A stretch of 64,000 bases of DNA from Clostridia bacterium (GTDB lineage Bacteria > Bacillota > Clostridia > Oscillospirales > Acutalibacteraceae). Location of the stretch: assembly GCA_017432485.1 (NCBI GenBank), contig JAFRJB010000079.1, forward strand, positions 1-64,000, given 5' to 3'. Shown here piece after piece: positions 26,025 to 54,916 of the stretch. Each line of letters starts with the position of its first letter. The stretch's first letter is position 1. The notes beneath the pieces are model-generated. The model was not told where the DNA came from, searched no databases, and saw nothing but the letters and a program-made list of their open reading frames with translations. The position numbers and the translations under genes are program-made.

Positions 26025-26405
26025 AAGGGCGCTGCCATCTTTATCGCTGTTTCCAAGGCAGTGTATGAAGCTGCACTACGGAGAGTGGCGATAAAGAAAT
26101 TTTGGTTTATTTTGTCTGCTTTCACTCACCTCGACAATTTAAAAATATGCCAATACGCTGAGTATTCCCACATTTTAAAATTGCCTATCTGAGCAAAATC
26201 AGGCAAAATAAACTGCTTCGCACCTTAAATTCAATATTTTTGTGCAAGAAGAAGGCAAAAATCGCACATAAAGCTGACGCTTATGTGCGGTTTTTAACGC
26301 ACTTATTGTGCGAAAAGATTGAATTTAAGGCAATATTTCTTTACCTCCACTCTCCGTTTAGACGGCGTGGCAAGAGTTCCTTATGATGAGAGCTACAGCA
26401 AATAA
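26025..26405 (+). pseudogene. Remnant of a malic enzyme gene, deleted and interrupted
   Basis: 26025-26074 joins a segment like 21888-21908 (KGA.IFI.VS) to one identical over 29 bases with 22243-22271 (VSKAVYEAA). After a 280-base inverted-repeat element, 26361-26405 matches the last 45 bases of malic enzyme (22279-22323) with three differences, all synonymous, and ends in the same codons DGVARVPYDESYSK and TAA. The fusion point lies in a shared GTTTCC. It is a broken second copy of the malic enzyme 3' end on the same strand as the intact gene. Confidence 0.85.
26078..26357. mobile_element. MITE-like element with 23-bp terminal inverted repeats
   Basis: ACGGAGAGTGGCGATAAAGA (from 26078) and its counterpart ending at 26357 match at 20 of 23 positions over the full repeat. 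Inside is a second perfect 13-base inverted repeat, CCTTAAATTCAAT (26223-26235) with ATTGAATTTAAGG (26318-26330), which encloses a hairpin CGCACATAA/TTATGTGCG (26263-26289) followed by GTTTTT. There is no transposase. The element interrupts the malic enzyme remnant. A target duplication was not clear. Confidence 0.78.
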
Positions 26406-42271: not shown

Positions 42272-43378
42272 CTAATTCAGTCTTGAAAAAATGCCGAAAT
42301 ACACGATTGCAATGCCGATAACCGAAACGATAACGGAGACCGCGGAAAATACGGCAACGATTTTATTCTCTTTCCACCCGCTCAATTCAAAGTGATGGTG
42401 GATGGGGGTCATTTTAAAGATTCTTCTGCCGACAATATTGCCGTTTTCATCTTTATCTTTATAAATCTTTTTTGTCAGTTTGTAATAGCCGACCTGCAGC
42501 ATCACCGAGCCGGTTTCGCACACATACACAATACCCATAATCAAAATGATGTACGGTACATGCAGGGCAAATGCCATTGCCATCACCGCGCCGCCCAAAA
42601 ACAGCGAGCCGGTATCGCCCATAAAGACTTTTGCGGGGTAGTGGTTCCAGATCAAATAGCCGGCGCAAGCGCCTGCAATCGCCGCCGCGAAAATGGAAAC
42701 GCCTGCAAACTTGTGCAAAACGGAAATGACCAGGAAGCCGATGGAAACCACCGTTGTCACCGAACCGCACAGTCCGTCAATACCATCGGTGAGGTTAACG
42801 GCATTGGAAAAACCGTAAATTAAGAAAATGCCGCCAAGCCAGAAAAGAAGACCGCCCCAAATACTGTTACCAAGTTCGACCACCATATGCTTACCGGAAG
42901 CAAACGGCAAATAAAACCAGGTGTTTTTGCTTATATATAAACTGAGCAAATAACCGAAGCCGATAATCACCTGCCCTAAGGTTTTTTGCATCGGGGTTAA
43001 GCCTTCGTTTCTCTTTTTGACCACGGAAATGTAGTCATCCGCAAAGCCGATCACGCCTTGCCCGAGCGCCAGGAACAGTCCGGCAAAGACAAGCACCTTG
43101 GAGTTACTGCCGAAATTATTGACACCGTCACCCAAGTCGCCTTTTGTAAGCACAAAAATCAAAACAGTGATAAGAAACGCCGCAACCGAGCCGATGATAA
43201 ACATAATGCCGCCCATGGTCGGGGTGCCTTGCTTTTTCTTGTGCCAGGAAGGACCGATATCCAAAATGGTTTGACCGTATTTCAGTTTGTGCAGCCACGG
43301 AATAATCCATTTGCCCGAAACTGCCGAAATCGCAAATGCCAGTGCGAGTGAAATCGCGATTGCTACCCAATTACTCAT
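42272..43378 (-). CDS. mraY: Phospho-MurNAc-pentapeptide transferase MraY
   Basis: The 368-residue protein (start ATG 43378, MSNWVAIAIS) shows KKQGTPTMGGIMF, the catalytic FADDYISVVKKRN..LTP.QK and NLTDGIDGL, and ends TPIHHHFELSGWKENKI. It makes lipid I from UDP-MurNAc-pentapeptide and undecaprenyl phosphate. It overlaps the murF end by eight bases, with AGGAAGG in the murF codons. Confidence 0.97.
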   Translation of the reverse strand: MSNWVAIAISLALAFAISAVSGKWIIPWLHKLKYGQTILDIGPSWHKKKQGTPTMGGIMFIIGSVAAFLITVLIFVLTKGDLGDGVNNFGSNSKVLVFAGLFLALGQGVIGFADDYISVVKKRNEGLTPMQKTLGQVIIGFGYLLSLYISKNTWFYLPFASGKHMVVELGNSIWGGLLFWLGGIFLIYGFSNAVNLTDGIDGLCGSVTTVVSIGFLVISVLHKFAGVSIFAAAIAGACAGYLIWNHYPAKVFMGDTGSLFLGGAVMAMAFALHVPYIILIMGIVYVCETGSVMLQVGYYKLTKKIYKDKDENGNIVGRRIFKMTPIHHHFELSGWKENKIVAVFSAVSVIVSVIGIAIVYFGIFSRLN

Positions 43379-44738
43379 GTTTGATACCCTTCCTCTCATA
43401 CAAAGCGTTAATTGTTTCTTCTAAGTGCATGCCGTTACTGCCTTTGAATAACAGCACGCTGTCATCTTCTGCGCAGGCACTGACTGCTTCCAATAATGCC
43501 TGCTTATCTTCAAAAAATTCTGTCTGCGGCACGCCGCCCTCTTTTGCCTTCTCGCAGTAGAAGCGCGCCTGATCGCCGTAAGCGAGCACTGCATCTATTT
43601 TTTGCCGGGCGCAAAATTCACCGACCTCTTCGTGCAGGCGCTGTGCATAGTCACCGAGCTCAAGCATATCCGCCAACACGGCGATTTTCTTTTTGGCGTT
43701 CATCTGTGCCAAGGTTTCGATTGCCGCGCGCATCGAGTCGGTAGAAGCGTTGTAACAATCTTCAATGACGGTAAAATCGCTGCATTTGACAATCTTTTGG
43801 CGCCTGCCTGCAGGTTCATATTCCGCAAGTTTTTGCGCAACCTTTTTGGCATCAATGCCGCTCAACACGGCAACACCGAAAGCACACAGCGCATTGAGCA
43901 CATTGTGGTTACCCACTGCAGGGATGTGTACCTCTTGCCTGCCGCCGCTGTAAACGATGGTAAAATCGGTACTCTCTGTTGTGCGGCGAATATCCTGCGC
44001 CCGAAAGTCGGCGCCGGGGTTTTCAATCCCGAAGTAGTACACCGGTCTGCCTTCGACTTTAACCGTTGCCAATTTGTCGTTATCGGCATTGAGTAGAAGC
44101 GGTGCATCGGGCTGCATCCCATCGAGTATTTCGAGCTTTGCTTTTAAAATGCCGTCACGCGAGCCCAAATTCTCAATATGGGAAACACCGATATTGGTGA
44201 TCACACCCATCGTCGGTCTGCTGCGCAGCACTAAGTTGTGGATTTCTCCGAAATGGTTCATTCCCATTTCAATAACCGCCGCTTCATAACTGCTGTCTAA
44301 GCGTAACAGCGTTGCCGGCATACCGATATCGTTGTTGAAGTTTCCTTCTGTTTTAAGCGTTTTAAACTTAGCGCTGAGTGCCAAAGCAATAAACTCTTTT
44401 GTGGTCGTTTTACCCACACTGCCGGTGATGCCCACCAGCGGGATAGAAAACAGCGAGCGATAATAGCCTGCAATATCCAAGTAAGCGGTGCGCGTGTCTT
44501 CCACATAGAGCACCGGAGCGCTGCATGTCACCTTCTTGTGGCAAATGAGTGCCGCCGCGCCCTGCTCTGCCGCCTGCGCGGCAAAATCGTGAGCATCAAA
44601 GCGCTCGCCCTCAAAGGCGATAAACAAACAGCCTTTTTCTATTTTTCTGGTGTCGGTGCAAATGCTACTGATGGGGATATCCGCATCACACTTAGCGCCG
44701 ACCACCTCTGCAATCTTTTTTAAACGAAGTTCTTCCAA
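43371..44738 (-). CDS. murF: UDP-MurNAc-tripeptide:D-Ala-D-Ala ligase MurF
   Basis: The 455-residue Mur ligase has ISSICTDTRKIEKGCLFIAFEGERFDAHDF, the P-loop GITGSVGKTTTKEF and the second-domain MGMNHFGEIHNL, and IEDCYNASTDSM. It adds D-Ala-D-Ala. The start is TTG at 44738 after GAGAGGAG. Upstream, 284 bases separate it from murE, almost all taken by an inverted-repeat element. Confidence 0.96.
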   Translation of the reverse strand: MEELRLKKIAEVVGAKCDADIPISSICTDTRKIEKGCLFIAFEGERFDAHDFAAQAAEQGAAALICHKKVTCSAPVLYVEDTRTAYLDIAGYYRSLFSIPLVGITGSVGKTTTKEFIALALSAKFKTLKTEGNFNNDIGMPATLLRLDSSYEAAVIEMGMNHFGEIHNLVLRSRPTMGVITNIGVSHIENLGSRDGILKAKLEILDGMQPDAPLLLNADNDKLATVKVEGRPVYYFGIENPGADFRAQDIRRTTESTDFTIVYSGGRQEVHIPAVGNHNVLNALCAFGVAVLSGIDAKKVAQKLAEYEPAGRRQKIVKCSDFTVIEDCYNASTDSMRAAIETLAQMNAKKKIAVLADMLELGDYAQRLHEEVGEFCARQKIDAVLAYGDQARFYCEKAKEGGVPQTEFFEDKQALLEAVSACAEDDSVLLFKGSNGMHLEETINALYERKGIKHE

Positions 44739-44752
44739 TTAGATCTCCTCTC

Positions 44753-45029
44753 AGGGTAAAAGGAGCCGAGCCTTAACAGCCTCTCCCTCGCCCTTTTTGA
44801 CTAATTTATCCGGTTTTTCGTTGATTGGCGCCAGCCAATCTGCCTCAATATCGAAGAAATTATCACAAAAATTTCTTCGCGAGAGGTGCTTCACAGTTTT
44901 GGTCAGCTTATTTTTTTTAAAGATAAGGCAAAGCAGCGAAGGAATGCATCCGCATTGCGAGATGCTTTAACGCAATATTTGGGAAAAAGAAGCGACCAAA
45001 ACCTATTATGGTTCGACTCCTTTTACCCT
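44753..45029. mobile_element. 277-bp MITE-like element between murE and murF
   Basis: AGGGTAAAAGGAGCCGA (44753-44769) and TCGACTCCTTTTACCCT (45013-45029) are terminal inverted repeats with one mismatch. Inside are TTTTGGTC/GACCAAAA near the ends of the inner part, the hairpin CGAAGAAATT/AATTTCTTCG (about 44853-44880) and GATTGGCGCCAGCCAATC (about 44823-44840). No gene is seen. The right repeat supplies the final Gly codon and the TAA stop of murE. Confidence 0.8.
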
Positions 45030-46450
45030 AAAATTCCTTTGACAATTTCTCTCTCGTCGTAGTGCCGCTTCTCTTTGCCGATAATCTGATAGGTTTCGTG
45101 CCCTTTACCGGCTAAGATAATCACATCGTCTGCCTTCGCTTCCTGCAAAGCAAAGCGAATGGCTTCGGTTCTGTCGACAATAATCTTTGTATCTACCTTA
45201 TGCCCTTTTAAACCGACCGCTGCGTCTTCGACAATCTTTGCCGGATCCTCCGTGCGCGGGTTGTCGGAAGTGAGCACCACAAAGTCCGCTAAGGAGGCTG
45301 CCGCATCCGCCATCTTCGGGCGCTTGCCGGCATCTCTGTCGCCGCCGCAGCCGAAGACAATGATCACTCTGCCCTTGGCGAACTCTTTGACAGAACTCAA
45401 GATGTTCTTAATCCCATCCGGTGAGTGGGCGTAATCGATAATAACCGTGTAGTCCGTATCGGTCGGTACCACTTCAATTCTGCCTTTAACCCCTTTGACC
45501 GAAGAAAAGGCGCTGATGGTTTTCTTAAAATCAAGCCCCGCGGTAATCGCCGTGCTCGCAGCACACAAGGTGTTATACACCGTAAACGAACCGGGCACCG
45601 GGCACTTGAGCCTTGCAATCACCGCATCGCCCAACAGCTCATAGGTAATGCCGCGCGCATCTAACTGAATATTCTTTGCCACGAAATCGGCGCTGTTATC
45701 TTTGGCGGAATAAGTCACCACTTTGCAGCTGAGCCCTTCGCGCATAAAAGCGGCATAGGGGTCATCAAGATTGATAATCGCCGTATCGCAGTTGGCAAAG
45801 AGTTTTTTCTTTGCTGCCGCGTAGTTTTCCATAGTGCCGTGGAAATCCAGGTGGTCCTGGGTTAAGTTGGTGAAGATGGCAATGTGAAAATGCAAGCCGT
45901 CTACCCTGCCCTGCGCGAGCGCCTGGCTGGAAACTTCCATCACACAGTATTCACAACCGGCATCCGCCATCTTGCGGAAAAGTTGCTGCAATTCATAAGC
46001 AGTCGGGGTGGTATACTGCGCTTCAAACACTTCGTTGCCGACCATGTTCTGCATGGTGCCGATTAAGCCCATTTTAATGCCGTAGAGTTCAAACAAACTC
46101 TTGATAAAGTAAGTCGACGAAGTCTTGCCGTTGGTGCCGGTCAACCCGATAAGTTTGAGCTGCCTTGCGGGGTTGCCGAAGAAATTGGCGCACATCACGG
46201 AATACGCGCTGCGGGTGTTTTCAACCACCACTTCTTTTTTTAACCCCAGAGAGTGGTCGCAGACAACTGCCGCCGCACCCTTATCAAGCATTTCTTTGGC
46301 GGCACTGTGGCCGTCAAAATTAGCGCCTTTGATGCAGACAAACACGCTGCCTTTTTTCACTTTTCTTGTATCGTCCGTAATATCCTTCACTCTGACATTC
46401 TTGTAATCGGATACCACGTTCACACCCGTTAACAATTCCGATATTTTCAT
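45023..46450 (-). CDS. murE: UDP-MurNAc-tripeptide synthetase MurE (meso-DAP adding)
   Basis: The 475-residue Mur ligase has KDITDDTRKVKKGSVFVCIKG, the P-loop GLTGTNGKTSS, MEVSSQALAQGRVDG and the DNPRTEDP motif that marks specificity for meso-diaminopimelate in place of lysine. It ends AGKGHETYQ...HYDEREIV. This implies a DAP-type peptidoglycan. The last residues ILG and the stop come from the terminal repeat of the adjacent element, so the native C-terminus may have been altered by one to a few residues. Confidence 0.96.
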   Translation of the reverse strand: MKISELLTGVNVVSDYKNVRVKDITDDTRKVKKGSVFVCIKGANFDGHSAAKEMLDKGAAAVVCDHSLGLKKEVVVENTRSAYSVMCANFFGNPARQLKLIGLTGTNGKTSSTYFIKSLFELYGIKMGLIGTMQNMVGNEVFEAQYTTPTAYELQQLFRKMADAGCEYCVMEVSSQALAQGRVDGLHFHIAIFTNLTQDHLDFHGTMENYAAAKKKLFANCDTAIINLDDPYAAFMREGLSCKVVTYSAKDNSADFVAKNIQLDARGITYELLGDAVIARLKCPVPGSFTVYNTLCAASTAITAGLDFKKTISAFSSVKGVKGRIEVVPTDTDYTVIIDYAHSPDGIKNILSSVKEFAKGRVIIVFGCGGDRDAGKRPKMADAAASLADFVVLTSDNPRTEDPAKIVEDAAVGLKGHKVDTKIIVDRTEAIRFALQEAKADDVIILAGKGHETYQIIGKEKRHYDEREIVKGILG

Positions 46451-54640: not shown

Positions 54641-54830
54641 CATATCGAGCCGCTTAAAGCGGCATATCGAATTGCCATAGCAATATATCGAATGCGCAGT
54701 AAAAATTTCGCACAGCGAACAACCATTAAAAACAGCGGTCGGTTCGTTTTATCGAACCGTTTTTAATGCGAAGCGTTGCTTCGCCGCCTTTAATTCCGCA
54801 TTCCGACCGGACGCCCGACGCGAGTTCGAA
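54641..54830. repeat. Intergenic repeat (copy K) upstream of uvrC
   Basis: Three CATATCGA/ATATCGAA units alternate with short palindromes GCCGCTTAAAGCGGC and TTGCCATAGCAA (54641-54695). Then come GGTTCG...CGAACC (about 54740-54770), ATTCCGCATTCCGA heptads (54791-54804) and a GTTCGAAC palindrome. The remaining bases to 54916 hold nothing I recognise. No separate promoter for uvrC was found here. Confidence 0.7.
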
Positions 54831-54916
54831 CCGGAGCAGTCTCTCGGTTAGATATTTTCGTGATAATTGTGCCGCAACTGAGGCTGTTTGGGTTTGATTT
54901 GCGTTGGGCTATAACA

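Follow-up and report, generated by a model that had tools for sequence, protein, structure and literature searches.

The window analysed here, a stretch of 64,000 nucleotides from a Clostridia bacterium, carries murE and murF, essential cell-wall genes of the dcw operon, on its minus strand and, between them, a 277-bp element that, like its other copies, holds no gene (Table 1). The original prediction had placed terminal repeats at the borders of these 277 bases, and a search of 44600-45200 recovered exactly one such inverted pair, 27 nt long, imperfect (85% complementary) and with its strands 223 nt apart. The motif AGGGTAAAAGGAG occurs exactly at both element ends and is absent elsewhere in the window even when two mismatches are allowed; because 1.3 chance matches are expected, we place weight on the pairing of the ends and not on the motif count. 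The proposed gene edges were recovered as well: the 3' end of murE reads ...ATT TTA GGG TAA, its last Gly codon and stop lying inside the element, and the TTG of murF at 44738 is 14 bases off the left edge. In line with the claim that the inner hairpins lack a good U-tract, a consensus scan of 44600-45200 revealed no intrinsic terminator. The same scan yielded no sigma-70-like promoter and thus lends no support to one within the element.

Table 1. Features of the element at the murE-murF junction (positions in the window).
Feature	Position	Strand	Basis
Whole inserted element, 277 bp	44753..45029	.	Terminal repeats; junction without element in 5/5 genus relatives; ~40 own-genome matches
Left terminal repeat, one strand of stem P1	44753..44779	+	Inverted-repeat search and structure
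Right terminal repeat, other strand of P1	45003..45029	+	Inverted-repeat search; minus strand has the murE stop TAA and the Gly codon before it
Hairpin arm A	44780..44886	+	Arm-A model R2 match, 122 bits; consensus structure
Mini-hairpin TGC-TTC-(G/A)CA between arms	44887..44895	+	Consensus structure, helix 6
Hairpin arm B, diverged inverted copy of arm A	44894..45003	+	Arm-B model R1 match, 126.3 bits
murE, stop codon within element	45023..46450	-	ORF reading
murF, start TTG, GGAG upstream outside element	43371..44738	-	ORF reading

Eighty named loci were fetched with MurE as the query. In the five closest (L099-L103) MurE is 78-89% identical and in the next relative 63%; on account of this gap the five were taken as belonging to the same genus. 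They come from the gut and rumen MAGs RGIG2589, RUG714, RGIG5713, RUG14020 and RUG14129, and in all five murE abuts murF with no spacer. MurE ends in ...AGEI plus stop in four of them and in ...SGEIQ in L102; the window MurE ends in KGILG and a stop inside the element. On the plus strand, the junction reads CTCC(T/C)GCCAAAA or similar in the relatives, and CTCCTCTC, the element and AAAATT in the window. TA was seen at this junction in none of the five relatives, so that a doubling of TA at the murE site is possible at most. The comparison of spacing and C-termini that had been proposed as a check thus agreed with the prediction: the spacer, far from being conserved in distant species, is missing even in the five genus relatives, and their MurE tail is ...AGEI or a variant of it. 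Collectively, these data support the conclusion that the murE-murF element is a lineage-specific insertion in this gut bacterium.

BLAST of the bacterium's own 2.6-Mb genome returned 60 rows at E<=1, of which about 40 had an E of 1.5e-22 or better, a few of these being pieces of one copy. Element matches were present in all six other genomes of the genus, and in this BLAST-level comparison one of 53 genomes from other genera had a match, a marginal one of 26 nt. Both the ends, whose recurrence had been suggested as a further check, and the whole element are therefore repeated at dispersed places, which together with the empty orthologous junction upholds the reading as a mobile element. That the element is a mobile repeat is supported on these grounds. 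In the draft genomes many copies are found at the ends of contigs. Composites of about 549 bp also occur (L017/L189, L020/L190 and L188); the arm-A loop of these copies, which represent three different types of end, contains a related element about 270 bp long. No autonomous copy was seen around stray TIR motifs (ORFs at L031, L032 and L040; context only at L041, L044 and L049) or among the copies of G126, a genome of another genus described below. Searches of viral contigs (with one core pattern), phages and plasmids gave no match, and a viral, phage or plasmid carrier was rejected.

The window holds two further members. One, at 26078-26357, is diverged but belongs to the same superfamily (280 bp; own terminal repeats GGAGAGTGG.../...CCACTCTCC; two inverted arms); the other, at about 54813-54909 on the minus strand, is a shortened member of the GCCCGAC-ended subfamily (arm-A model, 24 bits; ends GCCCGACGCGAGTTCGAACC / GGGTTTGATTTGCGTTGGGC). 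Among the copies outside the window, that of L199 (G000 contig C51) directly follows the CCA of a tRNA-Ser(tga), and its other end recurs about three times in tandem as the 25-bp unit GTACCCATAGGAGTTCAAATCCTT. Many intergenic regions of the genus have short tandem arrays of the heptads (AATGCGG)n and (GTTCAGT)n next to small hairpins; they were noted at the flanks of L014, L011, L021 and L222. Matches to Gut-1 RNA (RF01706) were obtained at L029:506-583 and, just under the gathering score, at L015:1305-1378; both loci also hold tRNAs and element copies.

The element is built from the terminal stem P1, a mini-hairpin and two long hairpin arms, each arm being a diverged inverted copy of the other. 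The inverted homology of the arms is seen in copies from another genus: inside single G126 copies arm A matches arm B in inverted orientation at 72-74.5% over 108-110 nt. In the window member at 26078-26357, the arm-B model likewise matches the two arms, which run in opposite orientation. Folded with 8-nt flanks (293 nt), the minus strand reached -104 kcal/mol versus -75 kcal/mol in shuffles (z -5.5) and the plus strand -100.9 versus -66.5 kcal/mol (z -6.9), with none of 200 dinucleotide shuffles as stable on either strand. Thirty-eight copies (22 from G000 and 16 from G001, G002 and G004-G006) were aligned over their full length, incomplete, composite and near-duplicate copies being left out. 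For folding, L016 was dropped, leaving 37, and alignments of 21 G000 copies (A1), 36 copies (A2) and 37 copies (A3) were used. The consensus structure, which was derived from the tested sequences themselves, pairs 92.0% of cells in 21 copies, as against 82.9% after shuffling and 40-50% after sliding. Both sides have changed at 47 of 97 pairs, and none of 500 shuffles reached any of the measures. Compensatory changes are seen in P1 and in both arms, and covariation exceeds every control, of which the shuffle control is inflated by kinship and the slide control is free of that fault.

Conservation is unevenly distributed along the element. Mean column identity over the 38 copies is 0.85 in each arm and 0.72 and 0.71 in the terminal repeats, and yet the two ends of one copy agree with each other at a mean of 19.3 of 22 positions, versus 12.5 of 22 for ends of different copies. 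In 27 of the 38 copies, no end from another copy agrees better than the copy's own partner end. Placing the ends by maximal terminal match favours pairing within a copy, and the comparison between copies was given a shift of 2 to offset this bias. A conserved interior combined with variable, paired ends is the reverse of the standard MITE. The right ends of many copies (for example L018, L188 and L015) resemble a tRNA T-arm (GGTTCGANTCC; GGTTCGACTCC), and by eye tRNA-like right ends also appear in copies of G136, G177 and G202. Against tRNA 3' ends of their own genome the best matches were 11-17 of 20 positions, 30 shuffles of each giving means of 10-11 and maxima of 12-15; because several subfamilies score no better than shuffles, a tRNA origin of the ends was set aside and is treated as a curiosity.

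Beyond the genus, a covariance model of arm B, built from 36 copies and run with stricter filters on 300 sampled genomes of the taxonomic family, matched 116 genomes in 66 of 135 genera. G126 (three contigs) contains subfamilies of five and eight copies, 92-99.6% and 93-99% identical, of about 277-281 bp, and G245 and G136 hold near-identical copies of the same size class. Judged by this identity, the copies in the three genomes indicate recent mobility. Among the 80 named murE loci, at E<=0.1, the arm-B model had four matches and the arm-A model five, at six loci altogether. With neighbouring genes named from context, the match lies between murE and the next gene in L162, just before murE in L144, and farther downstream in L158 and L166; those at L123 and L148 are weak (E near 0.09). 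We found no description of the repeat family in the literature covered, open-licence PMC papers.

The 13 G126 copies lie at or in hairpins, many of them with T-tracts. When the flanks are joined (nine were displayed in this way), they restore intact terminators, for example GAAGCC-TCTTT-GGCTTCTTTTTT, which means that the stem of the target is kept. The flanks pair with a mean of -13.9 kcal/mol versus -8.0 kcal/mol for mismatched flanks, a mean reached in none of 5000 permutations; a pairing of -8 or better is found in 11 of the 13 copies and also in 45% of mismatched pairs. Outside a loop are L281, which lies in the T-tract past a hairpin, and L280, where a stem is hard to make out. For copies of the window's own genus the effect of loops is small (165 of 5000 permutations with 27 copies, 65 of 5000 with 23), the copies not all being independent, and the murE copy, with flanks at -5.4 kcal/mol, does not sit in a hairpin loop. 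One copy cuts a tRNA-Ala-like sequence at its anticodon loop (L004/L202, the latter being G000 contig C70 27400-28300). An intact tRNA-Ala(cgc) lies near L202, and another tRNA-like sequence is split elsewhere. A recurring host site is a palindrome about 130 bp long that is distinct from the element (CTCGTCCAAACAAA...CTTTTCGGGG), filled in L019, L021, L026, L027, L184, L230, L241 and L242 and empty in L031, L021, L097 and L221. For the G126 sites, two genomes of the same genus proved too diverged to supply direct empty counterparts, with just five short matches. With GC skew as a proxy for the replication strand, there was no strand bias (12 of 24 copies in G000, 7 of 13 in G126). Taken together, the targets are often loops of existing hairpins, namely terminators, palindromic repeats and a tRNA-like anticodon loop, as shown in another genus and weakly in that of the window.

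The edges of the element bear on the type of transposition. TA lies outside 34 of 88 ends against a background of 5.3%, a count that leaves out 15 named duplicates or incomplete copies and includes three ends misplaced by the script; most remaining ends have an A before GGG or GCC. Both ends are next to TA in at most 10 of 44 copies (seven by script and three by eye), and one pair, L228 filled and L095 empty, displays an exact doubling of TA. This pattern would suit an ordinary TA-duplicating MITE of the IS630/Tc1 type whose parent was lost or not assembled and whose transposase reads the terminal repeats. According to passages of PMC2229807, RUP, Correia/NEMIS and ERIC have TA at their ends and target-site duplications, and like the element they are 100-300 bp in size and have terminal inverted repeats, with stop codons and long stems as further shared traits. 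The element differs from them in its conserved interior, its variable, matched ends and its two inverted arms. Moreover, the IS630-type DDE_3 domain was found in none of the seven genus genomes, draft MAGs that may miss genes, and an IS630-type enzyme in the genus was rejected; conservation along the element is lowest in the terminal repeats, the opposite of what is expected of repeats read by a transposase; and just 1 of the 13 G126 copies has TA as its right flank. We therefore regard an IS630/Tc1-type MITE as unlikely.

The strong fold with its covariation could also belong to an old structured RNA that was dispersed passively and is kept for an effect on the mRNA, such as a cut by RNase III in the stretch from murE to murF. 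Twelve of the 15 classified G000 copies lie between tandem ORFs by rough ORF calls (five further copies had no usable ORFs, four were at contig edges and eight were excluded beforehand), and members stand beside cell-wall genes in other genera, both of which would fit such a role. Against it, the junction is empty in the relatives, many copies occupy unrelated sites, and none of the 4227 families of Rfam release 15 matched the element, so that a known RNA family was rejected. Counts of G-U and A-C pairs place the two arms on opposite strands, a poor fit to one RNA strand; as few columns decide, these counts were discarded as a means of calling RNA versus DNA. A structured RNA appears quite improbable in the light of these findings. 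Least probable of all, and in our judgement barely credible, is a stem-loop replacement in which a DDE enzyme of the IS1182/IS1272 type swaps the element for the inverted repeats of its target: passages of PMC5678879 report that IS1272 replaces target inverted repeats without a target-site duplication, potential stem-loops are targets in both cases, and part of the target stem has seemingly been lost in L004, L208 and L215, but IS1272 has its own gene and replaces the stem, which the G126 targets keep, and DDE_Tnp_1_6 was detected in one of ten genomes as a contig-end fragment and in none of the three genus genomes searched, so that an IS1182-type enzyme was rejected.

For a mobile element moved by an enzyme in trans, the Y1 transposases offer a candidate. 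Y1_Tnp was present in 154 of the 300 family genomes. The element occurs in 33 of the 41 genomes whose best Y1 match is weak (E > 1e-10) versus 83 of the other 259 (odds ratio 8.7, p 5e-9); strong IS200-type Y1 matches have no link with it (p 0.52). Counted by genus, it occurs in 28 of 34 genera with a RAYT-like gene versus 38 of 101 others (odds ratio 7.7, p 7e-6), where the cut of 1e-10 that defines RAYT-like was picked after the list had been seen and the genera are not independent. The weak Y1 matches that were inspected look like RAYTs by motif. Four proteins scored 58-67 bits with NF047646 (REP-associated tyrosine transposase), under the cut-off of 80, and that of L298, which looks like a different subgroup, scored 81 bits; the sole solved-structure match to L312 is 4er8, TnpArep. 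On G000 contig C124 about 70 bp separate a copy from the start of a RAYT-like gene. An arm-B match was found in 1 of 22 loci around Y1/RAYT matches, and no Y1 gene was detected at E<=0.1 in the element-rich genomes G136, G202, G009 and G014. Long flanking inverted repeats were present in 1 of 16 RAYT cases: at L298 (G000 contig C34, about 23.2 kb) a second Y1 gene, of another subgroup, lies between 38-nt inverted repeats holding GGGTAGGGGACGG, in the manner of a TIRtron. In the RAYT genes of L312:1430-1640, L301, L306, L310 and L316, apparent palindromic repeats in the coding frame give rise to variable peptide inserts. From these associations and matches we infer that a RAYT-type HUH/Y1 transposase would be the best candidate for the mobilising enzyme.

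Among known systems, REPINs are described in passages of PMC3116915 as non-coding, intergenic, inverted pairs of hairpin units with many copies. The element is likewise a non-coding, intergenic, multicopy inverted hairpin pair, with two inverted hairpin units per mobile unit in the G126 copies, and RAYT-like genes tend to occur in the same genomes, with exceptions such as G136, G202, G009 and G014. It differs in its length of about 277 bp, compared with short REP doublets, in its variable, paired ends, in lacking a GTAG tag, for which it has ends of the (T)AGGG, GCCC and TGGG types, and in that the RAYT genes are mostly not flanked by it. The general features of a MITE are present, since it is small, non-coding and dispersed with terminal inverted repeats; terminal repeats shared with an autonomous transposon were not found, the ends being its least conserved part. 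TIRtrons, according to passages of PMC3733652, have Y1-type transposase (TIRYT) genes, long terminal inverted repeats and dispersed TIR families, and the combination of Y1-type genes with a dispersed terminal-repeat family is similar here; the flanking inverted repeats at L298, the one locus that has them, are by eye unrelated to the element. Because it lacks both the GTAG tag of REPINs and the IS630 link of RUP-like MITEs, the element was assigned to neither group. It behaves most like a large REPIN or MITE and is non-autonomous, palindromic mobile DNA.

We thus consider it likely that the element is non-autonomous and non-coding, MITE/REPIN-like, maintained in its structure and targeted to hairpins, that it entered the murE-murF junction as a lineage-specific insertion, and that an enzyme acts on it in trans, for which a RAYT would be the best candidate. 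Such an enzyme may recognise the conserved inverted arm pair, the folded shape or both instead of a fixed terminal sequence, which would explain that the ends drift and yet stay paired. With regard to insertion edges, two of the three frames meet a stop codon in TAGGG... and GGGTAA, and the upstream ORF is stopped by the element in 4 of the 15 classified G000 copies; these ORFs are murE, one that matches the ODP beta-lactamase fold, one for a calcineurin-like phosphoesterase and one without a Pfam match. At the murE site the insertion would be tolerated because GGG TAA at the element's edge serves as a stop in frame, the GGAG of murF is kept and there is no terminator, so that murF and the later dcw genes could still be transcribed.

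More tentatively, and with considerable doubt, we propose a family-wide class of mobile DNA that would be known by its fold and conserved inverted arms, with ends free to vary if paired, hairpin loops (mainly of terminators) as targets, nesting, and one HUH enzyme (RAYT-type) or other enzyme acting in trans in at least 66 genera. The new features are that conservation is reversed, that the ends covary and that hairpin loops serve as targets. These data add a widespread family of structured mobile repeats with no match in Rfam release 15, and the reversed conservation and terminator-loop targets raise the testable question of whether a transposition system can set its own ends through base pairing. 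For the reading of genomes, they indicate that such elements enter essential operons and give stop codons to upstream genes.
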